DNA of 64,000 bases, taken from Gammaproteobacteria bacterium. Its GTDB lineage: Bacteria; Pseudomonadota; Gammaproteobacteria; UBA4575. Every line of letters begins with the position of its first letter. Position 1 is the first letter of the stretch. Shown here piece by piece: positions 3,584 through 17,866 of the stretch. The notes under the pieces are model-generated. The model saw only the letters and a program-made list of their open reading frames with translations. It did not search any database and was not told where the DNA came from. A program made the position numbers and the translations under genes. The stretch lies in NCBI GenBank assembly GCA_028279275.1, contig JANQOB010000006.1, positions 62,001-126,000 on the forward strand. Direction: 5' to 3'.

Positions 3584-4170
3584 TGTCATTTGAAATATGT
3601 GGCGTCCTACTCGCTGCGGGTTCATCTACCAGATTTGGAAGTCAAAAACTTCTACATAACTTACCAAATAAAGAAACTATCCTTTCGTTATCGTCAAAAA
3701 CTCTAAAACAATCGATACCGTATTCTGTAGCAATCGTTCAAGATATAAATTCTGAAATTTCAAGTATCTTAGATAGCGAAGGCTATCAACTGATTGAAAA
3801 TTCTGCTCATCAAAATGGAATTGGAAGCAGTATCAGTTGTGCAGTAAAACATACAAGTCCTAATGCTTGGGTGTTTGCGCACGCAGATATGCCATTTGTT
3901 AGTAAAACTACGATTGATGCAGTCGTGCAACACCTGTTACTGAACCACAAGATTGTTGCACCCTACTTCCAAAAAACCCGAGGTCATCCTGTAGGATTTA
4001 ATTCGTGCTTTAGAAAAGATTTAGAAGAACTAAATCAAGATTTTGGAGCTAAACAAATTATTGAAGAAAATATGAATATCGTAAAAAATATCGAAACTGA
4101 GGATTATGGTGTAGTAACAGATATTGATACAAAATTAGATTTAGATTTTATTATTAATAAACACCGTTAA
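3583..4170 (+). CDS. MobA-like / MocA-type nucleotidyltransferase
   Basis: 195 residues with the NTP-transferase signature LLAAGSSTRFGSQKLL at the N-terminus and HADMPFVS (about residues 105-112), the metal/nucleotide site. Relatives (MocA, CoxI-associated MobA-like proteins) add CMP or GMP to molybdopterin; xanthine oxidase family enzymes often use the cytosine dinucleotide form. The start overlaps the previous stop (TAATG), so it is the last gene of the molybdenum hydroxylase operon. Whether it transfers CMP or GMP cannot be decided by reading. Confidence 0.9.
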   Translation: MSFEICGVLLAAGSSTRFGSQKLLHNLPNKETILSLSSKTLKQSIPYSVAIVQDINSEISSILDSEGYQLIENSAHQNGIGSSISCAVKHTSPNAWVFAHADMPFVSKTTIDAVVQHLLLNHKIVAPYFQKTRGHPVGFNSCFRKDLEELNQDFGAKQIIEENMNIVKNIETEDYGVVTDIDTKLDLDFIINKHR

Positions 4171-4234: not shown

Positions 4235-4289
4235 GACCCATCACATATCTTTAAAGTATTAAATCCGACCTTTTCATTAAGGTTTATAC

Positions 4290-4295
4290 TGTACA
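4290..4295. promoter_or_regulatory. Single TGTACA box upstream of the Fe-S photolyase
   Basis: TGTACA directly follows a TATACT (4285-4290) that could serve as a -10 box, about 90 bases before the photolyase start. It matches the TnTACA half-site seen in pairs near the MerR regulator, but no second copy lies 11 bp away on either side. It is at best a half operator. Confidence 0.25.
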
Positions 4296-4381
4296 GATAT
4301 GGTATTCGTCTTGCCTAATGAGACTTTTTCAATACTATTCCGGCAATTGATAAGCATTTCAATCTAAGAATTCTAAATAAT

Positions 4382-5899
4382 ATGCCCTCACTAATACTCA
4401 TTCTCGGAGATCAGCTAAATAGAAATATCTCCAGTCTTAAAAAAGCAAATAAACATGAAGATTTCATCCTCATGTGTGAAGTGAGTGCGGAAGCTACCTA
4501 TGTGAAACATCATAAGAAAAAGATTGCCTTGGTATTAAGTGCAATGCGCCATTTTTCTCAGGAACTTACCGATGCTGGATATAAGGTCATTTATATAAAA
4601 CTCGATGATAAATCGAATACTGGTTCACTAGAATCTGAAGTTCAAAGAATCGCAAAAGCAAAAAAATGCAGCTGGGTAATTATCACGCACCCTGGAGAAT
4701 ATCGGGTTTATGAAAATTTAGATTCGTTAAAAAATAGTAATCTTGAAATTCAGTGGATCGAGGATGACCGCTTCATGTGCAGTCGTAATGAATTCGCTGA
4801 TTGGGTAAAAGAAAAAAAGCAACCACGTATGGAAAACTTTTACCGCTATATGAGACAAAAACACAATATTCTCATGCGGGGCAAACAACCTGAGGGTAAG
4901 AAATGGAATTTTGATAAAGATAACCGTAAAACACCAAAAAATGGAGAAATACCATCTAAACCCAGAAAATTTAAACCAGACGCAATCACTAATGAAATCC
5001 TAAGCCTAGTAGAAAAGAATTTTTCTGATCATTTCGGAGATTTAGAACCGTTTGAAATTGCGGTAACACGAAAACAAGCACTAATAGCCTTAAATCATTT
5101 CATAAATGAACGCTTGGTTAATTTTGGTGATTACCAAGATGCAATGCTAGAAAATGAACCTTTTATGTATCATTCCCTACTTAGTTTCTACTTGAATATT
5201 GGTTTATTGGTTCCTAATGAAATTATCGTTAAAGCACAACAGGCATATGAAAATGGGCATGTTGCGATTAATGCAGCAGAAGGTTTTATCAGACAAATAT
5301 TAGGATGGAGAGAATATATCCGTGGAATTTATTGGCACAAAATGCCCAATTATTCGAACAGTAACTTCTTCAACGCAAAAAAACAATTACCTGAATTTTT
5401 CTGGAATGGAGATACAAAACTGAATTGCTTGTCTCAATGCATCAATGAAACAAAAAACAACGCATATGCACATCACATCCAAAGGTTAATGGTGCTAGGT
5501 AATTTTTGCTTGCTTACTGGAATACAACCTAAGCAAGTGAATGAATGGTATTTAATCGTATATGCGGATGCATTTGAATGGGTGGAGTTACCCAATGTAG
5601 TAGGAATGATCTTATTCGCTGATGGTGGATACCTTGCGAGTAAGCCCTACGCAAGTGGCGGTGCTTATATCAATAAAATGTCAAATTACTGCAAAACATG
5701 CCATTACAAAGTTAGCGAAAAAACTGGTGAAAAAGCCTGCCCTTTTAACTATCTATACTGGAATTTTTTAGATAAACACCGTGAAAAATTGTCAAGTAAT
5801 CAAAGACTGACAATGGTGTATAGCACATTAAATAAAATGGGTCACGAAAGGCTCTCCGATATTCGTAGTGATGCTAAATCTTTTATCCGATCTATCTGA
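4382..5899 (+). CDS. Fe-S bacterial cryptochrome / (6-4) photolyase (FeS-BCP, PhrB-like)
   Basis: 505 residues, close to the 507 of Agrobacterium PhrB as I recall it. The N-terminal alpha/beta domain starts LILGDQLNRN; the C-terminal half is the all-helical FAD domain with HHIQRLMVLGNF (His364-His365). Four cysteines at 349, 437, 440 and 453 match, within one residue, the 4Fe-4S ligands of Agrobacterium PhrB (350, 438, 441, 454). Family members repair (6-4) photoproducts with blue light or act as photoreceptors. The second cryptochrome gene starts 11 bases after the stop, so they form a pair. The start is the first ATG; no clear ribosome binding site is seen. Confidence 0.95.
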   Translation: MPSLILILGDQLNRNISSLKKANKHEDFILMCEVSAEATYVKHHKKKIALVLSAMRHFSQELTDAGYKVIYIKLDDKSNTGSLESEVQRIAKAKKCSWVIITHPGEYRVYENLDSLKNSNLEIQWIEDDRFMCSRNEFADWVKEKKQPRMENFYRYMRQKHNILMRGKQPEGKKWNFDKDNRKTPKNGEIPSKPRKFKPDAITNEILSLVEKNFSDHFGDLEPFEIAVTRKQALIALNHFINERLVNFGDYQDAMLENEPFMYHSLLSFYLNIGLLVPNEIIVKAQQAYENGHVAINAAEGFIRQILGWREYIRGIYWHKMPNYSNSNFFNAKKQLPEFFWNGDTKLNCLSQCINETKNNAYAHHIQRLMVLGNFCLLTGIQPKQVNEWYLIVYADAFEWVELPNVVGMILFADGGYLASKPYASGGAYINKMSNYCKTCHYKVSEKTGEKACPFNYLYWNFLDKHREKLSSNQRLTMVYSTLNKMGHERLSDIRSDAKSFIRSI

Positions 5900-5910
5900 T
5901 CGTTATTTTT

Positions 5911-7443
5911 ATGGATAACTGTAATTTAGTCTGGTTCAAGAAGGACTTACGAACTTTTGACCATCAGCCATTGATGAATGCATGCGATACTGGAAAAGCT
6001 ATTGCATTGTATGTTCTTGAAGATGATTGGGTTTCAAGCAAGGAATTTTCTCAACATCAAGCTCAGTTTCTAAGGGATAGCTTAATTGAGTTAAGTGATT
6101 CGTTAGCTACACTTAACATTCCACTAATTATTAAAAGAGGCGATATGATTGCATGTCTGAATGATCTTCGTCGCGAACTAAAAATTAAGTCATTATTCAG
6201 CCATTATGAAACAGGAGTTGCTTGGACTTATGAAAGAGATAAAAAAGTAAAACAATGGTGTAATGAGAATAATATTAACTGGAGAGAATTTCATCAATTT
6301 GCAGTCGTGCGAAATTTGAAATCTAGAGATGAGTGGAATAAAAAACGAAAATTACTTATTGAGCGTGACACCTTTCCAAGACCCACAAGACAATATAATT
6401 CTCTCAATGTAAGCAAGATTAAGTCGTTGACTGTTAAATCTGTCTTTGATGATCTCTTGTCTAGAGACCTCCTCGATATACAAAAAGGTGGTCGAAATGA
6501 AGGCATAAACATGTTGAATAGTTTCCTCAACGATAGAGGTTTGAATTATGCTAAAAATATGTCCTCGCCAATGACAGCATATGATAATTGTAGTCGTATC
6601 AGTTCCCACATAACTTGGGGCACATTATCGTTATCAGAAATTCATAATTTACTCTCAAAAACACGTGACAAGATTGTAGACAGTAATACAAATTTGAAAA
6701 GTAACTGGCTTAAAAGTCTACAAGCATTTGAGAGTCGTTTATGGTGGCACTGCCACTTCATTCAAAAACTCGAGTCAGAACCATCAATAGAATTTAAGAA
6801 TGTGAATGCTGGATTTGATGGAATGCGTGAAGATAGTTTCAACCATGCATATTTTGAAGCATGGAAAAAAGGCGAAACTGGTTTCCCAATGATTGACGCA
6901 TGCATGCGTGCTCTAATACAACATGGCTGGATCAATTTTAGAATGCGTGCGATGCTAATCAGTTTTGCAGCCTACCAACTATGGTTACATTGGGAAAAGC
7001 CAGCAAACTATTTAGCAAAACTTTTTACAGATTTTGAGCCAGGTATTCATTACAGCCAAGCACAGATGCAATCTGGAGTTACAGGTATAAATGCCATAAG
7101 GATCTACTCACCCATTAAACAAGCAAAAGACCAAGATCCAACAGGCGAATTTATAAAAAAATACTGCCCTGAGTTGAATGGATTAACAACTCAAAACATA
7201 CATGAACCATATACAATGTCTCCCATTGAGCAAATAACATCAGGTGTAACTATTGGAAAAGACTACCCCAAACCCATAGTCGAACATGCCCCGTCATACC
7301 TTTCGGCTAGGAACACTGTATATAAATGGAAGTCCTCTGAAAAAACACAACACCTTGCAAAAGTTGTGTATGAAAAACATGGAAGCCGTAAGAACTCATT
7401 TTTTCCAAGTCAAAAACGAGATGAATTTATAAAATCTAGTTAG
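5911..7443 (+). CDS. Divergent cryptochrome/photolyase family protein
   Basis: 510 residues. The N-terminal photolyase domain begins LVWFKKDLRTFDHQPL, and the C-terminal FAD domain contains TGFPMIDACMRALIQHGW and an RMRAM segment. Where classical CPD photolyases have ANN-SWQW-AG-G-DAAPYFRIFNP, this protein has DFEPGIHYSQAQMQSGVTG and then NAIRIYSPIKQ, so the substrate pocket and flavin environment differ. It probably binds FAD and either repairs DNA or signals light; which one cannot be told here. It is likely translated with the upstream Fe-S photolyase. No good Shine-Dalgarno precedes the ATG. Confidence 0.9.
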   Translation: MDNCNLVWFKKDLRTFDHQPLMNACDTGKAIALYVLEDDWVSSKEFSQHQAQFLRDSLIELSDSLATLNIPLIIKRGDMIACLNDLRRELKIKSLFSHYETGVAWTYERDKKVKQWCNENNINWREFHQFAVVRNLKSRDEWNKKRKLLIERDTFPRPTRQYNSLNVSKIKSLTVKSVFDDLLSRDLLDIQKGGRNEGINMLNSFLNDRGLNYAKNMSSPMTAYDNCSRISSHITWGTLSLSEIHNLLSKTRDKIVDSNTNLKSNWLKSLQAFESRLWWHCHFIQKLESEPSIEFKNVNAGFDGMREDSFNHAYFEAWKKGETGFPMIDACMRALIQHGWINFRMRAMLISFAAYQLWLHWEKPANYLAKLFTDFEPGIHYSQAQMQSGVTGINAIRIYSPIKQAKDQDPTGEFIKKYCPELNGLTTQNIHEPYTMSPIEQITSGVTIGKDYPKPIVEHAPSYLSARNTVYKWKSSEKTQHLAKVVYEKHGSRKNSFFPSQKRDEFIKSS

Positions 7444-7515
7444 AGATTTACTTGTCAACTTAGCATTTTAAACTTCATCTACTTAACAATATCTTGTTTA
7501 AGAATTAATTCACAT

Positions 7516-7541
7516 AAAAAAAGCTCCCCGAAGGGAGCTTT
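7516..7541 (-). terminator. Rho-independent terminator of the alkB-like gene
   Basis: AAAGCTCCC, a 4-base loop and GGGAGCTTT form a perfect 9-bp stem (7520-7541). Read on the minus strand it is followed by seven T, so it ends the alkB-like transcript. On the plus strand the T-run is only three, so it may partly stop the cryptochrome transcript too. Confidence 0.85.
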
Positions 7542-7595
7542 AACACGCGTTGATGAGGAGCGACAACACGAATTTTTGTAATTAGTGAGATTGAA

Positions 7596-8738
7596 CTATG
7601 CGTAACCAGCTTGCTTGTTCATCTCATCTGCGATCTTAAGCTCACCTTCTGAAGCCATCTCATCATCCCATTCGGTAAGTCTCTTATTGATAAACTTGTG
7701 CCAGACAGGAGGAATGATCGCTAAAGCAAAGAGAGTAAAGTAACCACGTCCACAATCAGGTGCACCTACTTCATCTAATTCCCAGTAGTGTGTTTCACCA
7801 CGATCATGATGATCAGCTTGACGACCTATTTCGATAAAGAACCAGCTTGTGAAAGCAGTGCTGTTATCCCAGCTATGTCGATAGTCTATTGGCTGACCTT
7901 TTTCACGTATCAAGCCGTAATGCTCAAGATAATTCAGCGCCTCTAATTCAAAGTTAGCGATGGCCCAGACAATTGCAAGTGACGCAATTCCGATCCACCC
8001 ACCTACAAACCAGAAAAGTAAGACTGTAGGCAACGACATTGCGTAACCACGAATCCATCTGTTTTGCCATGATAAAAATGGCACGTCCAGTTTTTCTAGT
8101 CTTCTCTTTTCCATATTGAAGAGGAATTTACTCTGACCAAAACCAGACAATGGTAAGTGTGCATAGATGCTTCTACCTCTAGGTGCTGTTGCCGGATCAT
8201 CTTGATGCCCAAGTTCTAAATGGTGGTTGTAGACATGCGCATAACAGAAATGAGCTTTTCCACTTAGCGCCATCATCCAACGTGCAATTACAAAGCTGAA
8301 TCCCTTGGTGTGAGCAAGCTCATGGCCATAAATAATGCCTATTCCAGCAAAAATACCGGTCGACAAAATTGCGCCTATAAGTTGTGAGCCTGAAATACCG
8401 TTTTGGATGGCTAGACCCAGCATCGTTGCATCTGAGATAGGCACACCATTTACGTATTGCCAAATCCTCCATGCCAAAGCCACTTGTAAGAGTATAAAAA
8501 CGCCCAACATTCCGTACATCATGCCATTTTGTAGCGGTACGCTGGCGTTGGTCTCTCCTTGACTATCGAATCCTGCGCCAGGTGTTTTGCGAGTGATGAG
8601 TGTGTCTGCGATTATCGCAATGCCTAAGAGCACCACACCTGTCCACACCCATGGTCCACCAGCAAGTACCCCAAAGAGCGTTGCAAATATCAGCATGGGC
8701 GCAGAAAAATATCGCGCGTTAACAAGTATTTTTTTCAT
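7596..8738 (-). CDS. AlkB-type integral membrane di-iron monooxygenase
   Basis: 380 residues with about six membrane helices. Histidine boxes in the AlkB order are visible: HELAH (His139, His143), HVYNHH (168, 172, 173), NYLEHYG (His273) and ADHH (310, 311). AlkB inserts oxygen into terminal C-H bonds of alkanes with rubredoxin as electron donor. The fourth box reads GRQADHH, where AlkB has QRHSDHH, so one iron-ligand position is Gln307 instead of His. The true substrate may not be an alkane. The start at 8738 is preferred over an upstream in-frame candidate because AAGGAG lies 6 bases before it. The gene is divergent from the MerR regulator and has its own terminator; no rubredoxin gene is near. 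Confidence 0.88.
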   Translation of the reverse strand: MKKILVNARYFSAPMLIFATLFGVLAGGPWVWTGVVLLGIAIIADTLITRKTPGAGFDSQGETNASVPLQNGMMYGMLGVFILLQVALAWRIWQYVNGVPISDATMLGLAIQNGISGSQLIGAILSTGIFAGIGIIYGHELAHTKGFSFVIARWMMALSGKAHFCYAHVYNHHLELGHQDDPATAPRGRSIYAHLPLSGFGQSKFLFNMEKRRLEKLDVPFLSWQNRWIRGYAMSLPTVLLFWFVGGWIGIASLAIVWAIANFELEALNYLEHYGLIREKGQPIDYRHSWDNSTAFTSWFFIEIGRQADHHDRGETHYWELDEVGAPDCGRGYFTLFALAIIPPVWHKFINKRLTEWDDEMASEGELKIADEMNKQAGYA

Positions 8739-8750
8739 TAGAACTCCTTT

Positions 8751-8767
8751 TGTACAGGTTATGTACA
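8751..8767. promoter_or_regulatory. Candidate LitR/CarH-type operator upstream of the alkB-like gene
   Basis: Two TGTACA boxes begin at 8751 and 8762, exactly 11 bp apart. From memory, CarH operators are direct repeats of TnTACA at about 11-bp period. The pair lies just upstream of the alkB-like ribosome binding site (read on the minus strand), where a bound regulator would block transcription. The regulator encoded at 9240 has the matching type of DNA-binding domain. Confidence 0.5.
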
Positions 8768-8910
8768 CTATTTTTTAAAAATTGATCAAATTAATTAACT
8801 GTCATACAGCTATTTGCTTGATATCTAAGAATTTCATGAAGCTAATATAGCCAAATGCACAGATAAAATATAGCTCTTGAAGAGAATATATCTATATTTG
8901 TCCAGTACAT

Positions 8911-8939
8911 ATATAGGTTTTATTTTAATAAACCTATAT
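8911..8939. promoter_or_regulatory. Perfect 10-bp palindrome in the divergent control region
   Basis: ATATAGGTTT (8911-8920) and AAACCTATAT (8930-8939) are exact reverse complements separated by 9 bases. It sits in the middle of the alkB-like/regulator intergenic region, between the two TnTACA pairs. It could be an operator for a second factor or mark a promoter; no T-run suggests a terminator. Confidence 0.45.
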
Positions 8940-8976
8940 TTTTCTTAATTGATTAAGTATATTTTGTGTCAATGCT

Positions 8977-8993
8977 TATACACTATATGTACA
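8977..8993. promoter_or_regulatory. Candidate LitR/CarH-type operator before the small membrane peptide
   Basis: TATACA at 8977 and TGTACA at 8988 both fit TnTACA and are again 11 bp apart. The second box ends 13 bases before the ATG of the small peptide at 9007 and overlaps its leader. With the pair at 8751 this gives one candidate operator for each divergent transcript, as expected for an autoregulating MerR protein. Confidence 0.5.
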
Positions 8994-9006
8994 GAAAGGA
9001 ATAATT

Positions 9007-9159
9007 ATGGATTTTTACACAGTTTTAACACTTATCACATTAATGACGATCCCATTGTCGGGATTACTTTTACTGCCAGTCTTAATTTCAAGAATGACCT
9101 CTTTAGAGCCCATTCCAGTGAAGAGCACTGACCACCCACAGTTTAAGAGACAGAGATAA
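9007..9159 (+). CDS. Small membrane peptide upstream of the MerR regulator
   Basis: A 50-codon gene. The ATG at 9007 is preceded by AAAGGA with 6-base spacing, a strong ribosome binding site. Residues 6-28 are hydrophobic (LTLITLMTIPLSGLLLLPV in the core), and the tail after it is polar and ends basic (KRQR), so a single membrane helix is likely. It lies 80 bases before the regulator gene and directly behind a candidate operator, so it should be the first gene of that transcript. I do not recognise the family. Confidence 0.6.
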   Translation: MDFYTVLTLITLMTIPLSGLLLLPVLISRMTSLEPIPVKSTDHPQFKRQR

Positions 9160-9239
9160 GAAGCTAATCGATACGCTTAGCGATTTAGTTAGCAAAGATA
9201 TACAGATATTCACTAAATGAAACACAAGAAGGTTTAATC

Positions 9240-10259
9240 ATGTTAAATACAAATTTTGCAACATTACCAATCCAACGTTTTGAATCACTACAAAACAAGG
9301 CGGGCTATAAGATTGGTGCCGTTTCACGCATTACAGGAATAGGTTCAGAAACTCTAAGAGCCTGGGAAAGACGCTATCAAGCTGTTGTACCTACCAGGAC
9401 AGACTCTGGTGACCGTATGTATTCAAGAGAGGACGTAACAAAACTACTATTACTAAAAAATATTGTAGATTGTGGAATAGCAATCGGCACTATTGCTGAA
9501 CTAGATATTGATGAACTCAAGCAACTTGCTGAAGACTACTCTGCAAGCTTAAATAACAGTACAGCTAACTCAAACACTACAGAATGTCGCGTGGCATTAT
9601 TGGGTGATGGTTTTCCAATACGAATTTTAGACAATCTCGAAGAAGTCAAAGGTATCAATGTCACGGGCGTTTACAACTCATTAGCTGATTTCCAGCTAAA
9701 CGTGAATAAGAGCCATCAAACGAATGTTGTGATTATTGAAAAACCGACGCTAAATGCCGAGATTCAAAAAGAAATCACGCAAATAATTGAAATCTCTGGT
9801 GCGTGGCATGTCATAGTACTTTATGGTTTTGCAAATCATGAACAGATTGAACAGTTACAATCCTCTCAAATATCAGTAATTCGTTCTTCAGTCGATGTAC
9901 AAGAACTAGCTCGTTTGTGTATTTATCATTCCGGAGGAAGTGAACAATTACCAACCCTAAAAAGCGGTTCAACTCTTCACTATGAGCAAACAATCCCTTC
10001 GAGGAAGTTTAGCAATCAACAACTCACAAAGCTTGCAAGTATCTCCAGCACTATAAAATGTGAGTGTCCAAAACACTTATCAGATATTGTTAGAGATTTA
10101 GTAGCATTTGAAATTTACAGTGCTGAATGCGAAACCGAAAATGAACAAGATTCTGCTCTTCATAGCTATCTTCATGCAACAACGGCACAAGCGAGAAGCT
10201 TGCTAGAAGAAGCAATGTCTCACTTAATACGTATAGAAGGGATAGATTTAAACCAATAA
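9240..10259 (+). CDS. MerR-type regulator, LitR/CarH-like without evident B12 site
   Basis: 339 residues. Residues 23-91 form a MerR winged helix (YKIGAVSRITGI, LRAWERRY, GDRMYSREDV), the form found in CarH and LitR. The C-terminal two thirds have a Rossmann-like pattern, but I see no ExxH or DxHxxG motif for cobalamin. That fits what I recall as class II LitR of Pseudomonas putida, which lacks a functional B12 domain and is relieved by a LOV light sensor. AGAAGG precedes the ATG. It heads a gene string (DCC, unknown, DUF3429, SOUL) and is divergent from the alkB-like gene, with matching operators between. Light as the signal is inference. Confidence 0.85.
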   Translation: MLNTNFATLPIQRFESLQNKAGYKIGAVSRITGIGSETLRAWERRYQAVVPTRTDSGDRMYSREDVTKLLLLKNIVDCGIAIGTIAELDIDELKQLAEDYSASLNNSTANSNTTECRVALLGDGFPIRILDNLEEVKGINVTGVYNSLADFQLNVNKSHQTNVVIIEKPTLNAEIQKEITQIIEISGAWHVIVLYGFANHEQIEQLQSSQISVIRSSVDVQELARLCIYHSGGSEQLPTLKSGSTLHYEQTIPSRKFSNQQLTKLASISSTIKCECPKHLSDIVRDLVAFEIYSAECETENEQDSALHSYLHATTAQARSLLEEAMSHLIRIEGIDLNQ

Positions 10260-10269
10260 AGGCAAAATT

Positions 10270-10665
10270 GTGCGATCAACAAAAAATACTGGTTTAGTGG
10301 ATAAAGTACCGCATCTCGTTTTTTATGATGATGCCTGCCCTTTATGCTCAAAAGAAATCAATCACTATCGTAAGTTAGAAACTCGTCATCCTATCGAATG
10401 GATACCGTTACATAAAGAAGAGGATTTTGTGAAAAGTTTTGGTTTTTCGAAAATCTCTCTTCTAGAACGTCTACATGTAGTTCGCGGTGATGGTGTAATT
10501 GTGACTGGGGCCTCCGCATTTGCAACGATATGGTATTCCATTAAACGTTATCACTGGCTTGGAAAACTTGTGTATAAGTTACATCTAATACCATTTCTCG
10601 AATATTTTTATAAGTTTTTCGCTAAATGGCGCTCTAAACGTGAATATTGCAACACACAATGTTAA
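10270..10665 (+). CDS. DCC family thiol-disulfide oxidoreductase-like protein (DUF393)
   Basis: 131 residues, starting at GTG 10270 with AAAGG 8 bases upstream and 10 bases after the regulator's stop. The N-terminal VFYDDACPLCSKEI carries the DxxCxxC signature of the DCC (DUF393) family, which has a thioredoxin-like fold. A hydrophobic or aromatic C-terminal helix region follows. The reaction is not known for the family. DUF393 genes are, from memory, frequent neighbours of photolyase and cryptochrome genes in proteobacteria, which fits this place. Confidence 0.85.
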   Translation: MRSTKNTGLVDKVPHLVFYDDACPLCSKEINHYRKLETRHPIEWIPLHKEEDFVKSFGFSKISLLERLHVVRGDGVIVTGASAFATIWYSIKRYHWLGKLVYKLHLIPFLEYFYKFFAKWRSKREYCNTQC

Positions 10666-10680
10666 CCATTGGAAATGAAT

Positions 10681-11001
10681 ATGAACTTACTTTGCTTTAC
10701 TACTATTACCTCAACTGGAACCTCAAAGGAAATTGAATTTCCTTTGCATCCTGAAACAAAATCACCTGAATTAATTTCAAACATCGTAACGGAATTATTG
10801 AACACAATTAGCGAATGCGTAAATAAATTAGAGAGTTGTAAAGATGGTGATATCCTACAAGCCCTCTCTATGGTTATGGCTATTCGCAGCCGTATGGTGG
10901 ATATCAATCCTGAACACTCACACAAATTACTACAAGAGCTTGTCAATTTGCATCATCAAGCAGTAGTTGATGCTAAGGAGCAAATAGCTTCACGAGCTTA
11001 G
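10681..11001 (+). CDS. Hypothetical protein, 106 residues
   Basis: I do not recognise it. The ATG at 10681 has GGA 7 bases upstream; an ATG at 10675 and a TTG at 10669 are alternatives. The N-terminal part looks like a beta strand pair (LLCFTTITSTG), and the rest is helical and charged (about residues 25-105), suggesting a small soluble helical protein. It follows the DCC gene by 15 bases and precedes the DUF3429 gene by 33, so it belongs to the regulator's transcript. Confidence 0.7.
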   Translation: MNLLCFTTITSTGTSKEIEFPLHPETKSPELISNIVTELLNTISECVNKLESCKDGDILQALSMVMAIRSRMVDINPEHSHKLLQELVNLHHQAVVDAKEQIASRA

Positions 11002-11034
11002 ATTGTAAAAAATAATTACTGAAGAGTTCTCAGA

Positions 11035-11490
11035 TTGAATACACACGAAAGTGCGCTAACTCCTAAAATATTAGGTTATTTAGGCCTAATACCTTTTTTG
11101 ACATCCGGTGTGCTTATTTGGTTTACACAGTTCCATACCTATGCCATTAAAAGTTTAAGTATCTATGCTGCTGTTATATTAACCTTCATTGGTGGTGTGC
11201 ATTGGGGAATTGCCATGCATACTCATCAAAATAAAAACCAATCTAAAATTAACACTCGTAATCAATTTATTTTTAGTGTCATTCCTTCTTTGATAGCATG
11301 GTCGGCGATCGTTTTTTCCAATTCAACTGGGTTAGTAATTATTGCATTATGCTTCGGTATGTTTTGGTTAATTGAAAAATTATACTTTCATGAATATTTA
11401 TCCAGTTGGTATATGCGATTAAGATCTCATCTGACTTTGGTCGCATGCTTTAGCATCATCATTGGCTGGTTGGGTATTCTTTATAGATGA
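11035..11490 (+). CDS. DUF3429 family membrane protein
   Basis: 151 residues with four to five membrane helices. The core motifs LGLIPFL near the N-terminus and FIGGVHWGIAMH near residue 52 are those of DUF3429. The start is TTG 11035, since no ATG precedes the conserved part; the ribosome binding site is weak (GAAGAG). Function is unknown. From memory the family is often linked to photolyase/SDR/DUF1365 clusters in gammaproteobacteria, so its presence supports the light-response reading of the region. Confidence 0.82.
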   Translation: MNTHESALTPKILGYLGLIPFLTSGVLIWFTQFHTYAIKSLSIYAAVILTFIGGVHWGIAMHTHQNKNQSKINTRNQFIFSVIPSLIAWSAIVFSNSTGLVIIALCFGMFWLIEKLYFHEYLSSWYMRLRSHLTLVACFSIIIGWLGILYR

Positions 11491-11587
11491 GTATTTACAA
11501 CATTAAATTAATTTAACCTTGCGTACATATTTAATTTAAGTAACTAATTTATAATTACTGTTATCTTAATGAAATTACTAGTATGCA

Positions 11588-12205
11588 ATGAAATGTTTCT
11601 ATATATCAATCCTTTCAATTACTCTAGCAAGCTGTTCTGCAGTGGGTATTCGTAACTACGAAGAACCAAATTATCAAGCATTGGTTCAAGAAGACAAATT
11701 TGAAGTTAGACTTTATTCAGATGTGTTGATCGCGCAGTCCACATCATCCGGAAACTATAAAGAAAGCTCAGAATCAAACTTTGAACGATTAGCTGGATAT
11801 ATATTCGGTAAAAACATAGCTAACCAAAAAATGGATATGACTACTCCTGTGCTTCAGAAGAAAGAATCTGAAAAGATGGATATGACTGTTCCAGTATTTC
11901 AACAACAGACAGACACCGACTGGACTATGACATTTGTCTTGCCCAACAAATATACCATCGATACTGTTCCGATGCCCTTAGATGAGAATGTAACAGTAAA
12001 AGTGTTACCGAAAGTTAAAGTCGCCACACTCCGATTCAGCGGAAGACTAAGTGAAGACAGTATCCAGAAAAATACGGTTTTACTTGAGGATTGGGTGAAG
12101 CAAAAAAGCTTTAGCGCAGTTGCCAGCCCCTACTCTGCTGCATATGATCCACCATGGACATTACCTATGTTAAGGAGAAATGAAATACACATCCCTATTG
12201 AATGA
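11588..12205 (+). CDS. SOUL family heme-binding lipoprotein
   Basis: 205 residues. A short signal peptide ends in a lipobox (LASC, Cys at about 16), so it is probably a lipoprotein. The body is a SOUL/HBP domain: YEEPNYQALVQEDKFEVRLY, then two KMDMTTPV/KMDMTVPV repeats and a C-terminal RRNEIHI. SOUL proteins bind heme or tetrapyrroles. A 97-base gap separates it from the DUF3429 gene, so it may have its own promoter. It converges with the SDR gene with only 2 bases between the stops. Confidence 0.9.
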   Translation: MKCFYISILSITLASCSAVGIRNYEEPNYQALVQEDKFEVRLYSDVLIAQSTSSGNYKESSESNFERLAGYIFGKNIANQKMDMTTPVLQKKESEKMDMTVPVFQQQTDTDWTMTFVLPNKYTIDTVPMPLDENVTVKVLPKVKVATLRFSGRLSEDSIQKNTVLLEDWVKQKSFSAVASPYSAAYDPPWTLPMLRRNEIHIPIE

Positions 12206-12207
12206 TT

Positions 12208-12915
12208 TTATGACATTCCTCTAATCGAAGATAAACCACCGTCAAAATTAATAACCTGACCTGTCATCCAGCTAGACTCATCACTTACTAAAAATTTAAC
12301 TAAGTGCGCAATCTCGTGTGGTTCGCCAATACGGTTTAATGGATGACGTTTCGATATAGCTTCGAGCTTATTGGCATCACGAGTAAATTTACTTGCAAGA
12401 GGTGTATTAACTAGAGAGGGAGCAATAGAATTGAATCTAACTCCAGCCGAAGCAAACTCAGCGGCTAGCGAACGGACCAATCCTTCAAGTGCGCCTTTTG
12501 CCGTTGCAACTGAGGAGTGATAATTCATACCTTGCTTTACTGCAACAGTACTAAATGCAACTACTGAGGCATTCCCAGACTTTTTTAAGGTGTTAATGGT
12601 AGCTTTAACCGTATTGATAAAGCCAGTTACATTAATTTTGAAGTCTTTTTCAAAATCATCGCTGTTTAAACTGGTGAATGGTTTTAATTTAATGCTACCT
12701 GGGCAGTAAATAACACTGTGCAGTTCTTGAGGTAAAAACGAATAATCTAATCCAGCCTTGCAAACATCGCCCGTGAAATACTCTACATTATCTACAGGTC
12801 TATTTACATTACCACTTCTAGTTAATGAGTAAATTTGGTTATCTTTTGCAAGCACATCTACACAGGCAGAACCAATTCCGCTGTTACCACCAACAATTAA
12901 AATATTTTTCTTCAT
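12208..12915 (-). CDS. SDR family protein lacking the canonical catalytic Tyr
   Basis: 235 residues, a Rossmann-fold short-chain dehydrogenase. The cofactor loop GGNSGIG is at 9-15. The active-site Lys is Lys140 in ATAKGALEGL, and Ser122 fits the catalytic Ser, but the residue four before the Lys, normally Tyr, is Val136. A Tyr and a His stand at 132-133 instead. The NNAG motif is replaced by CPG (71-73). It may use a shifted residue or be non-enzymatic. SDR genes of this kind occur, as I recall, in light-inducible photolyase clusters. Confidence 0.85.
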   Translation of the reverse strand: MKKNILIVGGNSGIGSACVDVLAKDNQIYSLTRSGNVNRPVDNVEYFTGDVCKAGLDYSFLPQELHSVIYCPGSIKLKPFTSLNSDDFEKDFKINVTGFINTVKATINTLKKSGNASVVAFSTVAVKQGMNYHSSVATAKGALEGLVRSLAAEFASAGVRFNSIAPSLVNTPLASKFTRDANKLEAISKRHPLNRIGEPHEIAHLVKFLVSDESSWMTGQVINFDGGLSSIRGMS

Positions 12916-13054
12916 TCATAATACATATTTAGTTACATATTTACATTTTATTCTATTGTTGATTGGTCACCGAATTACTGTACTGTATGCCTATTTCTTA
13001 GCATCATTTGCAACTTTCTTTTCCTGGTGCTAATAGCTGACCTAGAACTGATTT

Positions 13055-13489
13055 TTAAGACTTAGATGGCACAATAAGTATGGGAATATTACTCAAACGC
13101 AGGGTGTTTTCAGCAGTGCTCCCTAATAATAGTCTTTTTATTCCAGTTTTTCCTCGCGTGCCCATAATGATTAAATCAGCTCCCCAAGTATTTGCTGTTG
13201 AAACAATCTCCTTACTTGGTTTCCCTTCTGGCAAAAATCGTTCAAATTTATCCAGATTAAGTTGGTTGACAATACCATCAATAAACTTTTCTGCCCCATC
13301 CTTTAGTTTGGCAATTTGTTCCTGGGGAAGTCTTCCTGATTTACCTTCATTGTTTACTTTTGTAGTATCGATTACAAAGACTAAAGCAATAGTAGCACCG
13401 AGCTGCGATGACGAATTCACACCATGCTCAACGACTTTAATAGAATGTTCGCTATCATCTACTGCAATTAATACTTTCTTATAGGGCAT
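13055..13489 (-). CDS. Universal stress protein (UspA family)
   Basis: 144 residues, a single Usp domain. It begins KKVLIAVDDSEHS and ends with GTRGKTGIKRLLLGS, the G-x2-G-x9-G-S ATP-binding signature. Such proteins bind ATP and raise survival under starvation or oxidative stress by unknown means. It stands alone, 139 bases upstream (in its own direction) of the SDR gene, and could be read with it, but a 139-base gap leaves room for a separate promoter. Confidence 0.93.
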   Translation of the reverse strand: MPYKKVLIAVDDSEHSIKVVEHGVNSSSQLGATIALVFVIDTTKVNNEGKSGRLPQEQIAKLKDGAEKFIDGIVNQLNLDKFERFLPEGKPSKEIVSTANTWGADLIIMGTRGKTGIKRLLLGSTAENTLRLSNIPILIVPSKS

Positions 13490-13640
13490 TATGGAATTTA
13501 ATCTATGTTCAACTCGGGAGAATTTATAACTAATACAATAGCAAAAAGTTAATTTAATATATTGTCACTTCTTTACTAAACGAATATTACAGTGCGAGTT
13601 TTAGCTCTTTAATTGAATGCTTTTGCTAGATTGGATGTTT

Positions 13641-14063
13641 TCAATAATTTCTACTTTTCTCCATTTCCATTTGCCTCATAGGCATTGTATCAATTAAGTC
13701 AAATATGCCTTCTAAATCTAGATCTTTTCCTTTTTTCTTAACACCACCATCCTTCCCTATCAGGACTACATTAGTTTCTGTATCACTAAAATATTTATCT
13801 AGTGATTCTTTATAAAATTTCTCTTTAATTTCACCGTTGAAATTACTTTCTACTCTTTTCTCTAAAAATACAAACCAATAGATATCTCTATCACGTATTT
13901 CTGGATCATATTTTTTTAGCGCATGTAAAACTTTTTCAGGTTCTTCATATTCTTGAATAAGAATTATTCTTGAGTTCCAATTTAGTTCACTTATGCTCTC
14001 TAATGCATAGATAGGCTGACAGGTAATAATTATTAAAAGAACTAAAAATAAAATTCGTACCAT
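13641..14063 (-). CDS. DUF4174 domain secreted protein
   Basis: 140 residues from ATG 14063. An N-terminal signal peptide (ILFLVLLIIITCQPIYA) is followed by a thioredoxin-like domain without CxxC: LNWNSRIILIQ, DRDIYWFVF, VVLIGKDGGVKKKG, FDLIDTMPMRQMEM. The last stretch is typical of DUF4174. It is probably periplasmic. An upstream GTG at 14087 would only add residues before the signal peptide, so I prefer 14063. Function unknown. Confidence 0.85.
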   Translation of the reverse strand: MVRILFLVLLIIITCQPIYALESISELNWNSRIILIQEYEEPEKVLHALKKYDPEIRDRDIYWFVFLEKRVESNFNGEIKEKFYKESLDKYFSDTETNVVLIGKDGGVKKKGKDLDLEGIFDLIDTMPMRQMEMEKSRNY

Positions 14064-14093
14064 GTTAGAAAGATAATAGAAAAACACAAATGA

Positions 14094-14125
14094 AGGTCGG
14101 CCCTATAATAAGTTTAGACCGACCT
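14094..14125 (-). terminator. Probable terminator of the hsp20 gene
   Basis: AGGTCGG (14094-14100) and CCGACCT (14119-14125) form a 7-bp stem with an 18-base loop. On the minus strand it follows the hsp20 stop by about 28 bases and is followed by a T-rich tract. Confidence 0.55.
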
Positions 14126-14153
14126 CATGGAGTTGGAGTTGGAATTGGTTATT

Positions 14154-14597
14154 TCAGTGCTTTGATAACACCTCAATCTTCCGTGCTTTTGCCTGATCTT
14201 TTTTCTTGATGATTATTTGAAGTACACCGTCATGATTGCTTGCTGAGATATCTTCAGAATCCGCAACATTTGGAAGCACAAACTGACGATGAAATCTTCC
14301 CACTGGACGCTCTAGTTTTGATCGACTGTTGTCATTATCAGATACATACTTTGTTCGCTCACCAGAAACAGTAAGGACATTTTTATCTAGGCCAACTTCT
14401 ATTGCATTTGCGGCAATTCCTGGCATATCCGCATATAATTCAAAGCGATCATCATACTCTAGAATGTCTACCAATGGTGTCCACTCAGCAGTTGCTGCAC
14501 TGGTGTCACGATCTTCGTGTAAAGCTGATTCTAGAATATCGTTCATTTGAGAATGTAATCGATTAATTACTGGGTGTAGATCATAACGTTGAATCAT
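14154..14597 (-). CDS. Small heat-shock protein, Hsp20/alpha-crystallin family
   Basis: 147 residues. The alpha-crystallin domain covers about residues 40-135, with FELYADMPGI, the loop to VLTVSGER, and GVLQIIIKK near the end. Hsp20 proteins form oligomers that hold unfolded proteins for refolding. The ATG is preceded by AAAGGAG. I looked for a sigma-32 promoter (CTTGAAA / CCCCAT) upstream and saw none. Downstream is a terminator hairpin, so it is a single-gene unit. Confidence 0.93.
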   Translation of the reverse strand: MIQRYDLHPVINRLHSQMNDILESALHEDRDTSAATAEWTPLVDILEYDDRFELYADMPGIAANAIEVGLDKNVLTVSGERTKYVSDNDNSRSKLERPVGRFHRQFVLPNVADSEDISASNHDGVLQIIIKKKDQAKARKIEVLSKH

Positions 14598-15007
14598 TAT
14601 GTCATTTACTCCTTTATTTAGATTGTATTAAAAAAATCATTTATGATCGTCCGATTACCTTTACTTTGTGAATATTATGCTTTCGATACACTCTTAAAAA
14701 ATAATCTCGTTTTGCTAAAGGAAACAAATGAAACATAAATGCGTTTTGTGTCTGCAATACATAGATTTGAGCACGTAGTAAAAGTTCTAGATTAAGTATA
14801 CGTTTTTTCCGATTTTAAGCTCAGAAATAATCTTATAATTATGTAGGAATGTTTAGAATTAGGTCATTCATAGACAAAGAAGTATCGGAATCTATTCTTT
14901 ATACACGAATTAAATTTTCAGCTAACTGTTGAATTTTTCTAGACTGCCCATATCTAATAAGTATGAACACTTGGTATGATTTGATTACATAATAGAGGAC
15001 GATCAAT
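14598..15007. other. 410-base intergenic region
   Basis: AT-rich divergent region between hsp20 and the small membrane protein at 15008. It must hold both promoters, but I could not pick confident boxes. The only coding-like trace is a 16-codon frame at 14728 behind AAAGGAA, which I do not count as a gene. Confidence 0.5.
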
Positions 15008-15211
15008 ATGGAATTCTTGTTGCCTATAATGATGACAATAGTGTCTGTCTTATTGGCATATCATATAGCCACAGAAAAAGGTCTAAACGTCAAGTTCTGG
15101 ATAATCATGGCAATTATCTTCGGTTTACTAATACTCCCTTTCATTTTCTTTGCGAAAAATAATTCTAAGGAAAATACAGAAAATAAACGTGGTGATTTTC
15201 TCGAAGCATAA
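15008..15211 (+). CDS. Small two-helix membrane protein, hypothetical
   Basis: 67 residues. Hydrophobic segments at about 3-18 and 30-49 flank a short charged loop (HIATEKGLN), and the C-terminal tail is polar (KNNSKENTENKRGD), so it is a likely hairpin membrane protein. The ATG has AGAGGA 8 bases upstream. I do not recognise a family. It lies about 100 bases before the CNNM-like gene on the same strand and could share its transcript. Confidence 0.75.
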   Translation: MEFLLPIMMTIVSVLLAYHIATEKGLNVKFWIIMAIIFGLLILPFIFFAKNNSKENTENKRGDFLEA

Positions 15212-15312
15212 TCCCTAATTCATCACATACTCTAATATAAAAATACTTAAAATTAAGTAGATATTTGAGTAAATTAGATTATTATCTATATTTTCAAACT
15301 TAGACTTAATAC

Positions 15313-16377
15313 ATGACTCTTCTGATATTGTATTTATTAATTGCGATTGGGGTTTCTTTTTTCTGCTCAATCGCAGAAGCAGTATTACTCTCGGTCAGAC
15401 CCTCCTATATAGCCGCACTTCAGCAGAAAAAAAGAAAAAGTGGAGACAGGTTAAAAGCTTTACAAGATAACCTCGATCGTCCCCTAGCTGCTATTCTCAC
15501 TGCTAATACCGTTGCACACACTGTAGGTGCCGCTGGCGTTGGAGCACAGGCCACTATTATATTTGGCAGTGGATATCTTGGCATAACTTCAGCTATCTTG
15601 ACTTTTTTGATATTGGTTTTTTCAGAAATTATCCCTAAGACGCTTGGCGCTACGTACTGGAAACAACTTGCACCTACTATGTCAACATTAATTACCTGGC
15701 TGACGAAAATACTGTCTCCACTTGTTTGGATGACTGAAAAGCTAACAAGGATGTTGTCTCGCACCGATGATAGCGTCTTTACTTTCAGTCGTGATGAGAT
15801 GATAGCGATGGCTCAAATTGGCAAAGAAGAAGGCTTACTTGACTTAAAAGAACATAAAATTATCTCGAATCTTATGAAATTACATCGACTATCTGTTCGC
15901 GATATTATGACTCCAAATTTGGTTATCTTTTCGGTCTCGCAGAAAAAAAGTGTTGAAGAATTTTTTAAAGCTCACAATGAATGTCCTTTTTCACGAATAC
16001 CCATATATGATGAAAATACTGATGACATCAAAGGATATGTCCTGAAAAATGACTTGCTGATAGCGTTTGCAAATAAGGAATTTAATAAACAACTTTCTGA
16101 ATTCAAACGAGATATACAAGTCGTTTCAGATAAGATGATGGCATCAAACTTATTTGATTACCTTATGCATGAAAAAAGCCATATCGCTCTTGTCGTTAAT
16201 GAGTATGGTTCAATCCAGGGCTTAGTAACACTAGAGGATATTGTTGAGACATTGATTGGGCTAGAGATTGTAGACGAATCCGACACGATTGAAGATATGC
16301 GCGAAGTTGCAAAAAAATTATGGAATGAGCGTATGAATTCTTTTGGAATCGACCCATCTTTAAAGTCTCTCAACTAG
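15313..16377 (+). CDS. CNNM/CorC-type transporter-associated protein (DUF21 + CBS)
   Basis: 354 residues. Residues 1-130 are a DUF21 domain with several membrane helices (LLSVRPSYIAAL, VFSEIIPKTLGATY). A CBS pair follows from about 200 (RDIMTPNLVIF, FSRIPIYDENTDDIKGYVLKNDLL, IALVVNEYGSIQGLVTLEDIVETLIG). Members (CNNM, MpfA, YfjD/PaeA) export Mg or polyamines, and nucleotide binding by the CBS pair controls them. The CorC_HlyC C-terminal domain seems to be absent, which is a common short form. The start is an ATG in a weak context. Confidence 0.88.
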   Translation: MTLLILYLLIAIGVSFFCSIAEAVLLSVRPSYIAALQQKKRKSGDRLKALQDNLDRPLAAILTANTVAHTVGAAGVGAQATIIFGSGYLGITSAILTFLILVFSEIIPKTLGATYWKQLAPTMSTLITWLTKILSPLVWMTEKLTRMLSRTDDSVFTFSRDEMIAMAQIGKEEGLLDLKEHKIISNLMKLHRLSVRDIMTPNLVIFSVSQKKSVEEFFKAHNECPFSRIPIYDENTDDIKGYVLKNDLLIAFANKEFNKQLSEFKRDIQVVSDKMMASNLFDYLMHEKSHIALVVNEYGSIQGLVTLEDIVETLIGLEIVDESDTIEDMREVAKKLWNERMNSFGIDPSLKSLN

Positions 16378-16444
16378 CTCATAATTTAAAATGCCGCTAA
16401 AAAATATTCTTGGTACTGAACTCTCTGAGTTCCTTTAATAATTG

Positions 16445-17866
16445 TTATTTTGTATTTTTTATAGATTGATAAGCTTCCAAAGCTCGTTCACGTGAATTTT
16501 TAATTTCGACAATTGGGGCTGGATAGTTTTCGCCAAGTTTTACACCTGCTTCGAGAAGCACATCATTTGGCGCTTCCCATGGACTAAACAGATATTTATC
16601 GGGGAGATTTTTCAGTTCCGGAACAAAGTTACGCGTATAGACACCGTCAGGATCAAATTTTTGACCCTGGGTTACAGGATTGAAAATTCGAAAGTAAGGT
16701 GCAGCATCAGCACCACATCCTGCAACCCACTGCCAACTTGCACTGTTGTTTGCAAGATCCGCATCAACAAGGCAATCCCAAAACCAACGTTCACCATTAT
16801 GCCAATGCAATAATAAGTTTTTGACTAGAAAGGACCCTACAACCATTCTCACTCGATTATGCATATAACCTGTCTGCCATAATTCACGCATCCCCGCGTC
16901 TATTAATGGATAACCCGTTTGCCCTTGTTGCCATTGCTTAAGAATTTCTAGATCTTCAACCCATGGAAACTCATCAAACTTTGGCTGCAAATTTTTATGT
17001 GGTAACTCAGGAAAATGGTATAGAAGATTATGAGAGAATTCTCGCCAACCCAATTCGCTTTGAAAGTGATCCAGACTATCACTATTTTCCATTGATTTTG
17101 TTGCATGCCAGATTTGATTTGGAGAAATTTCCCCAAAATGAAGATGTGGTGATAAACGTGATGTGTAAGCTTTAGCAGGAAAATTACGACCCTCTTTATA
17201 ATTATTTATAGCATTTTTTAAAAATTTCTTTAATTTATGTTGTGCAGGTTTCTCGCCTATTTTCCAGTGAGGTTCCAACTGAAGGTCCCAGCGAATTTTT
17301 GGCAATAAATTTAAATCTTCGATTGTTATGCCAGAATCATTATTATCAAATAACTCTAACTTTTTTGGTTTCGATAGCGGATCCCGTGGTGGATCTGCAT
17401 TCAGACAGCCCTTTCGATAGTAAGGTGTGAACACTTTGTATGGTGTACCATCCTGTTTTAAAACTTCCCATGGTTCCCAAAGCAATGAACCGTTAAAGCT
17501 ATTCGCTTCAGTGTTATGTGCTTGCATAACTTTTTTAATCTGTTTATCTCTGTCAATCTGCCAAGGTTCATAGCAACGGTTCCAATAGACAGCTTTGACA
17601 TTATGCTCTTCAATCAAATCAATCAGAACCTTCTTTGGATCCCCTATTTGGATACAAAGCTTATTATTCAAGGACTCATCTAAAGCAGATAAAGAATAAT
17701 AGAGCCACCATCGACTGGCAGCACCAAGTTGGTTTTCTCCAGAATTCTTATTATCAAAAATGTAAACAGGCAGAACTGTGCCTTGTTTAACAGCTGCGCT
17801 TAGAGATGGGTTATCAGCTAAACGCAAATCCTGCCTGAACCAATGAATAACAATATCTTTAGACAT
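16445..17866 (-). CDS. phrB: Deoxyribodipyrimidine photolyase, class I CPD
   Basis: 473 residues, the usual length. The N-terminal antenna-binding domain starts IVIHWFRQDLRLADNPSL. The FAD domain has TGYPLIDAGMRELWQTGYMHNR, WHNGERWFWDCLVDADLANN, SWQWVAGCGADAAPYFRIFNP and a C-terminal YPAPIV. All hallmarks of class I CPD photolyase are intact, including the Asn after DLAN that tunes the flavin. It splits cyclobutane pyrimidine dimers with blue light. It is the third cryptochrome/photolyase gene within 13.5 kb. It is monocistronic by its spacing; no TnTACA pair is seen upstream. Confidence 0.97.
   Translation of the reverse strand: MSKDIVIHWFRQDLRLADNPSLSAAVKQGTVLPVYIFDNKNSGENQLGAASRWWLYYSLSALDESLNNKLCIQIGDPKKVLIDLIEEHNVKAVYWNRCYEPWQIDRDKQIKKVMQAHNTEANSFNGSLLWEPWEVLKQDGTPYKVFTPYYRKGCLNADPPRDPLSKPKKLELFDNNDSGITIEDLNLLPKIRWDLQLEPHWKIGEKPAQHKLKKFLKNAINNYKEGRNFPAKAYTSRLSPHLHFGEISPNQIWHATKSMENSDSLDHFQSELGWREFSHNLLYHFPELPHKNLQPKFDEFPWVEDLEILKQWQQGQTGYPLIDAGMRELWQTGYMHNRVRMVVGSFLVKNLLLHWHNGERWFWDCLVDADLANNSASWQWVAGCGADAAPYFRIFNPVTQGQKFDPDGVYTRNFVPELKNLPDKYLFSPWEAPNDVLLEAGVKLGENYPAPIVEIKNSRERALEAYQSIKNTK

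Follow-up and report, generated by a model that had tools for sequence, protein, structure and literature searches.

The closest described counterparts of the system considered here are found in the LitR/CarH family of MerR regulators and in the BluR-BluF pair of Escherichia coli, and the portions of the literature drawn on here describe them as follows. The CarH operator is built from 11-bp direct repeats with the consensus nAnnTnnACAn (PMC8156234). The class II LitR and short LOV systems of Pseudomonas (PplR1, PmlR2/PmSB-LOV) combine a MerR helix-turn-helix (HTH) with phr- and cry-type targets and TGTACA half-sites, which in the operator are spaced by N12 (PMC9758184). The class III LitR of Burkholderia multivorans needs a chromophore other than B12 (PMC6739363), and a light-dependent absorption change is reported for the recombinant class III protein (PMC9758184). 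No known function is given for LitR classes IV and V (PMC9758184, PMC6739363). The BluF-BluR system employs GTACA half-sites and has small-protein targets (PMC3509220).

Here we describe a locus in a 64,000-nucleotide window of a gammaproteobacterial genome (C11:62001-126000 of the 2.7-Mb assembly G000; coordinates without a contig prefix are window positions), in which a LitR/CarH-type MerR regulator (merR, 9240-10259, + strand) is encoded in an operon divergent from alkB, the gene for an AlkB-family alkane monooxygenase. On balance, we favour the view that this locus, starting at C11:66285, constitutes a class III-like, B12-free LitR regulon switched by light, of which alkB and a micropeptide gene would be new members.

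The regulator and its predicted operators

Judged by its sequence, the merR product is a MerR regulator with a DNA-binding domain of the CarH/LitR type and without a recognisable B12 domain. CarH is the nearest solved structure by sequence, over the HTH (5c8d, E 2.3e-8), and the best Foldseek match of the structural model (E 4.7e-7), and the CarH model is the best of 13 NCBIfam models, yet falls below its own cut-off. On these searches the protein belongs to the LitR/CarH family in the broad sense of MerR proteins with a CarH-like HTH. No B12-binding model matches it (Pfam, E <= 0.01), in keeping with the preliminary description of the locus, which had called it a LitR/CarH-type regulator lacking visible B12 residues. 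The B12-binding_2 domain, by which class II is recognised, likewise has no Pfam match in the regulator, three relatives of its type gave none even at E <= 1, and the class I LitR/CarH motif Wx9EH does not occur in the regulator, where W189 has NH nine residues on. Metal-responsive MerR models match the HTH only and not the C-terminus.

The HTH is followed by an alpha/beta domain that superposes on receiver domains in structure comparison, and a helical module comes after it, whereas in CarH, which shares the HTH fold and the 11-bp tandem direct-repeat operator, the helical module comes first. The VIA-align rows of the regulator cover residues 22-95 and 113-234 only, with the C-terminal module outside them. 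This C-terminus is helical and carries CECPxH, YSxEC and LH residues, the module starting in the alignment with CECPKH (residues 274-279; codons at 10059-10076, +). CxCPxH is present in 39 of the 41 regulators of this type with a readable C-terminus, a count in which the cut sequences L051 and L043 are not included, L126 lacks the N-terminal part and two pairs of rows are near-duplicates (L040/L041, L139/L142; L-numbers denote fetched loci). It is absent from all three alkB-linked paralogues. Full-length homologues of the window regulator are found in Burkholderia anthina (29%, E 5e-31) and B. arboris, and the C-terminal residues are kept in these two copies as well as in those of Caballeronia sp. 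SBC1 and a Methylomagnum plasmid. A 65% homologue, P0049, was not found on a search of G000.

The entire G000 assembly contains two exact matches to TRTACA-N5-TGTACA, at 8751-8767 and 8977-8993. The first falls in the predicted alkB operator, two tandem 11-bp repeats (ATAGTGTACAT-AACCTGTACAA, 8750-8771, -) located 11 bp before the ATG, and the second in the predicted operator of the peptide-merR operon, also a tandem repeat (TGCTTATACAC-TATATGTACAG, 8973-8994, +), 12 bp before the ATG. Each tandem site matches the CarH consensus at nine of its ten fixed positions, and the two are the sole intergenic matches at that level between positions 1 and 20000 of the window. The class II operator T(A/G)TACA-N12-TGTA(C/T)A is absent from C11:1-126000, where the N5 pair is found instead. 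The preliminary description had invoked a class II LitR acting with a LOV photosensor; this model shares the MerR HTH, the half-sites and phr/cry-type targets with the present locus, but is rejected on the missing B12-binding_2 match, the N5 rather than N12 spacing and the LOV pattern. The exact NCRFLQ codon pattern of short-LOV proteins was found in none of the 14 genomes searched, a result that variant LOV motifs would escape; BLUF proteins are present instead.

More widely, 17 of 30 regulator genes of this type, counting that of the window, have TGTACA in the 200 bp upstream, versus 20 of 325 other genes (p = 2e-11, an indicative value, the related genomes not being independent). Of the 37 loci entered into this count, L037 was dropped for its short upstream stretch, and L051 (incomplete), L111, L115, L121, L124 and L126 were also left out, being unrecognised by the filter or without a called frame; the same-genus copies of the window, L034 and L057, in which the peptide gene separates the operator from merR, were scored as misses.

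Single sites extend this pattern beyond the divergent pair. An 11-mer search places TATACTGTACA at 4285-4295 (+), before dprp-cry, and the same 11-mer is found at four places in G000 and two genomes of the same genus, G001 and G002 (G003 is a third member), two of these being upstream of the peptide-merR operon, in G001 and in G002. A second site form, TTATACTGTACA, is found ahead of dprp and also to the left of the window at C11:61824, where TATACTGTACA likewise lies; from there the distance to the first start codon of a molybdenum hydroxylase operon is 99 bp. This operon is a possible further, outlying member of the regulon, while dprp-cry and SDR may belong to it through single or degenerate sites, the SDR upstream stretch holding only a degenerate site (TGTAC at 12979). 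Only single GATACA/TATACA hexamers precede Hsp20, and none of the tested GTACA-type motifs lies upstream of phrB, Usp, DUF4174 or CNNM. Of the single island of 4290-17866 proposed earlier, these last four genes would not be part. Elsewhere, a G005 BLUF gene has TGTACA 104 bp upstream (L078:6606), and in G002 the hexamer directly precedes a GAF-protein gene that is followed by a BLUF gene (L077:9122).

Genes of the locus and the adjoining photosynthesis cluster

Genes in the window were identified by Pfam profile searches, which recovered all of the content listed in the preliminary description: three cryptochrome/photolyase types and the DCC, DUF3429, SOUL, SDR, USP and Hsp20 genes. The order from 5' to 3' is dprp-cry (+), alkB (-) and, divergent from alkB, peptide-merR-dcc-110 aa-DUF3429-SOUL (+), followed by SDR, Usp, DUF4174 and Hsp20 (all -), a 67-aa hydrophobic peptide, CNNM/CBS and phrB (-).

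The AlkB-type enzyme and the small membrane peptide that had been singled out as new members are both present. The alkB frame was called at 7596-8768 (-), with a likely start at 8738, and its product shows the FA_desaturase/AlkB fold (PDB 8sbb/8f6t), aligning with 8sbb at E 5.6e-29 with the histidine boxes in register; some of its homologues carry the source name alkane 1-monooxygenase. On this sequence evidence, "AlkB-type" here denotes the alkane monooxygenase family and not the AlkB demethylase. A predicted intrinsic terminator of alkB (GC stem and U tract) lies at 7513-7541 (-; fold z -4.3 for 7500-7600). The first gene of the divergent operon (9007-9159, +) encodes a 50-aa hydrophobic peptide (MDFYTV...), likely a single-helix membrane peptide. 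It has no database match, and the evidence for its conservation therefore consists of two syntenic copies, in G001 and G002, with PLSGLL(L/M)LPVLI(S/E)RMT in common.

Downstream of merR, the operon continues (+) with a DCC1-like thiol-disulfide oxidoreductase gene (10270-10665), kept in G001 and G002, a gene for a 110-aa protein without a Pfam match (10669-11001), whose position is kept in G001 (75%), the gene for a DUF3429 membrane protein (11035-11490) and that for a SOUL haem-binding family protein (11588-12205), kept in G001 (59%). DUF3429 did not occur in the papers of one literature search. The following genes encode the SDR oxidoreductase (12208-12915, -), kept in G001 (75%), Usp (13055-13489, -), DUF4174 (13641-14087, -), Hsp20 (14154-14597, -), the 67-aa peptide (15008-15211), which is the second small hydrophobic peptide of the window and has no LitR-type site, the CNNM/CBS protein (15313-16377, +) and the CPD-type photolyase phrB (16445-17866, -), which is near the predicted regulon and has no site upstream.

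On the other side of alkB, dprp (4382-5899, +) codes for a (6-4) photolyase-like protein of the FeS-BCP type, with a DPRP domain and a match to Agrobacterium PhrB (PDB 4dja) at E 6e-175. Its cysteines 349, 437, 440 and 453 are, by the PhrB ligand numbering, the four Fe-S cysteines. The divergent cry gene (5911-7443, +) starts 11 bp after dprp and was recognised by Pfam (FAD_binding_7, DNA_photolyase) and alignments. Its product reads Q-A-Q-M where Agrobacterium PhrA reads N-W-Q-W and the window phrB S-W-Q-W, with Q-V-Q-M in the cry of G043; it thus lacks the Trp next to FAD (W382 in E. coli). To the left, the molybdenum hydroxylase operon runs (+) from a [2Fe-2S] subunit gene that starts outside the window and ends at 389 through a MoCo-binding aldehyde/isoquinoline-oxidoreductase-like subunit (399-2600), XdhC (2597-3583) and a MobA-like protein (3583-4170).

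Further left on the same contig, C11:7829-53397 is, by its gene content, the photosynthesis gene cluster of an anoxygenic phototroph, after which the island comes. pufL and pufM (C11:7829-9654), BchZ, BchY, bchC, BchL, BchG, BchP and PpsR score above the NCBIfam cut-offs, and BchB above that of one model. Between pufLM and C11:53397 there are also genes for heme oxygenase, BLUF, BchI-/BchD-like and crtI-/crtB-like proteins, a bacteriophytochrome and a second PAS-HTH_8 protein. An AcsF-like gene, with a Pfam Rubrerythrin match, lies there too. Among 23 genomes, Photo_RC matches are confined to G000 and G043, with none in 18 other genomes of the family. Both have the regulator along with dprp and cry, although the two lie on separate contigs in G043. 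Photo_RC has no match in G001, which retains the operon, or in G002, which retains its start, and the operon appears to be independent of phototrophy in this genus. The exact N5 pair is not present left of the window, and two regulons, one PpsR-type and one LitR-type, seem to lie side by side.

Relatives of the regulator and their neighbourhoods

The operon peptide-merR-DCC-orf110-DUF3429-SOUL is kept together with SDR in G001 at 54-75% identity, and its start in G002, up to the contig end; both genomes have a second regulator copy elsewhere. In a class-wide survey the regulator was found in 21 of 369 genomes. Of 19 loci of regulator relatives from outside the family, seven (L052, L054, L113, L116, L120, L123, L125) include a gene for a photolyase, cry or DPRP, versus none of 18 control loci (p = 0.005), four of which are neighbouring stretches of G000's own contig and make the control not fully independent; the clustering with photolyase-type genes looks more than chance. 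Three further loci (L121, L122, L124) hold SDR, DCC, CFA or DUF1365 genes and L115 a BLUF gene only, and nothing of the kind was seen in the remaining eight: L053 (a weak 24% CFA match), L111, L112, L114, L117, L118 (Hsp20 only), L119 and L126.

The B. anthina homologue is encoded amid genes for an FAD oxidoreductase, SDR, DUF3429, a sigma factor, folE, CFA, DUF1365 and a photolyase. In Caballeronia sp. SBC1, folE, SDR and a sigma factor gene are beside the regulator and a photoactive yellow protein gene is 7 kb off, with no annotated photolyase, and the B. arboris record has no annotation around its copy. The B. anthina protein is probably a class III LitR. Set against this Burkholderia system, the present locus has in common a homologous regulator with CECPxH/YSxEC/LH as well as DUF3429, SDR and a photolyase, and differs in alkB, the membrane micropeptide, SOUL, DCC and the adjoining photosynthesis cluster; TGTACA sites occur here and none were seen in the Burkholderia islands. 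The neighbourhood comparison suggested earlier thus brought out light-island neighbours in part of the relatives only. In L113 (G201), a B12-binding_2 regulator (4492-5430, above cut-off) and a B12-less CECPxH regulator (9594-10607) bound one light island, which offers a natural test case for two-input control.

Several observations weigh against a light-switched regulon. Photolyase-type or other listed light genes are absent from the surroundings of all eight orthologues from the family's other genera (L044-L051), which show none of the island genes, and of nine of the 19 loci outside the family, one of the nine having a BLUF gene; L037-L042 share only merR with the window genes, the Methylomagnum plasmid copy has no such neighbours and the complete genome of the same genus, G003, has paralogues only and no orthologue of the regulator. 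With so many orthologues lacking light genes, the regulator may have other roles. No TGTACA/TATACA was found between the genes of the Burkholderia and Caballeronia islands, and sigma-70 promoter scans performed no better than shuffles. Allowing up to one mismatch genome-wide, the operator motif gives 11 strand hits versus 21 for the reversed control pattern, so the argument rests on the exact sites and on both falling within one 270-bp stretch; the reversed control for TATACTGTACA gives three places versus four. The regulator model has a pTM of 0.45 and a TM to CarH below 0.3, and in it CECPKH (C274/C276/H279) and C297/H308 stand at opposite ends of helix 276-296, which would allow no single site within the monomer but two sites, or one across a dimer only. 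Finally, two relatives, copies in G359 and G198, have Q in place of the module His.

The sensory input and alternative readings

In the dark, the regulator would likely repress both alkB and the peptide-merR-DCC-DUF3429 operon through the tandem 11-bp TGTACA repeats, and light is predicted to relieve this repression, the regulator leaving the DNA. Its own C-terminal CECPxH/YSxEC/LH module is taken, with moderate confidence, as the putative sensory part because 13 of the 21 regulator genomes have no BLUF match (E <= 1e-8), and such sensing would agree with reports that class III LitR perceives light without B12. Illumination would then induce, all together, DNA repair through the FeS-type photolyase and cry, the thiol and haem proteins, the AlkB oxidase of the membrane and the membrane micropeptide; for this cell, light would be hazardous on account of its bacteriochlorophyll.

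Two of the alternatives dispute the sensor step only, and the likelihoods given to them are not exclusive. A separate one-domain BLUF protein could be the photosensor and pull the regulator off the DNA, as BluF acts with BluR in E. coli, which we consider possible but unlikely. G000 has two single-domain BLUF proteins, one encoded at C11:45447, within the photosynthesis cluster and 26 kb away from merR, and one at C5:213013, and close relatives of the latter occur in two others of the 369 genomes (G005, G359), both with the regulator. BLUF was found in nine of the 14 genomes searched for it and in eight of the 21 regulator genomes versus 31 of 348 others (p = 6e-4; 7/19 with the family collapsed, p = 0.0015), a co-occurrence that may only mirror sunlit habitats; the 13 regulator genomes lacking it include the single-contig G010, which has none with the Pfam model either, and the window itself holds no BLUF gene. 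In G359, a BLUF gene (L115, C203:18783-19199) directly follows a regulator copy at a distance of 333 bp, and this regulator copy reads CECPHQ, Q replacing the module His, which the second G359 copy (L111) keeps; G198, whose regulator copy is the other one with Q, gave no BLUF match. The likeness to BluR-BluF extends to a predicted MerR repressor, GTACA half-sites, divergent small-protein targets and BLUF in the genome, but the portion of PMC3509220 drawn on here gives BluR a C-terminus without cysteines, in contrast to the conserved Cys module of the present regulator, and the single-domain BLUF proteins of G000 are unlinked to merR, with BLUF beside the regulator only in G359.

Alternatively, the cysteines of the regulator could serve to detect photo-oxidative or redox/metal cues such as singlet oxygen, thiol oxidation or iron, with light acting only indirectly. 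The conserved Cys/His residues, the DCC thiol oxidoreductase in the operon and a Vibrio cholerae MerR protein proposed to be driven by reactive oxygen species under blue light (PMC5241685) favour this idea, whereas the light-dependent absorption change of the recombinant class III LitR (PMC9758184) and the restriction of metal-responsive MerR matches to the HTH speak against it, and it too seems improbable.

A quite unlikely alternative is that the operator-linked core is an AlkB/lipid unit, beside which the photolyases are mere neighbours gathered next to the photosynthesis cluster. The single TGTACA of the dprp site and the lack of a site at phrB agree with it, as does a regulator paralogue paired with another alkB in G000, G003 and G057, which in G057 has TGTACA 49 bp upstream. 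This paralogue, however, is without the C-terminal module in all three genomes, and in G000 and G003 no TGTACA precedes it; in addition, other families have genomes in which relatives of the regulator recur together with DCC, SDR and cryptochrome/photolyase family genes. The pairing of the paralogue with the second alkB is divergent in G000 (L059, C12:17654-18450), G003 and G057 (L060, L058), and a FabA-like gene lies beside it.

Control of the island by the PpsR/CrtJ of the photosynthesis cluster is very improbable in spite of ppsR on the same contig and a single TGTN12ACA, at 8965, ahead of the small peptide gene. This PpsR-type site has 33 occurrences in the 62 kb left of the window and 11 in the 64 kb of the window, a threefold difference in density, with one in the nine island intergenic stretches tested, and the operon or its start is retained in G001 and G002, neither of which has a Photo_RC match.

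The reading as a class III-like LitR regulon can be extended, tentatively and with considerable doubt, to a separate B12-free LitR branch in which the CECPxH/YSxEC/LH module binds a metal or cofactor and couples light to AlkB oxidation, the micropeptide and (6-4) photolyase in an anoxygenic phototroph, the module His having been lost where BLUF became the sensor (G359). Neither alkB or a micropeptide under LitR nor the CECPxH module appeared in the titles and abstract openings returned by a literature search, which is weak evidence of absence. The class III chromophore is not named in the portion of PMC6739363 drawn on here, and the conserved residues, shared between beta- and gammaproteobacteria, offer a direct way to address it by mutation. 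At this locus, predicted operators of the LitR type stand before genes for an alkane monooxygenase and a micropeptide, and a regulon for protection from light would adjoin a photosynthesis cluster equipped with its own regulators (PpsR, bacteriophytochrome and BLUF).

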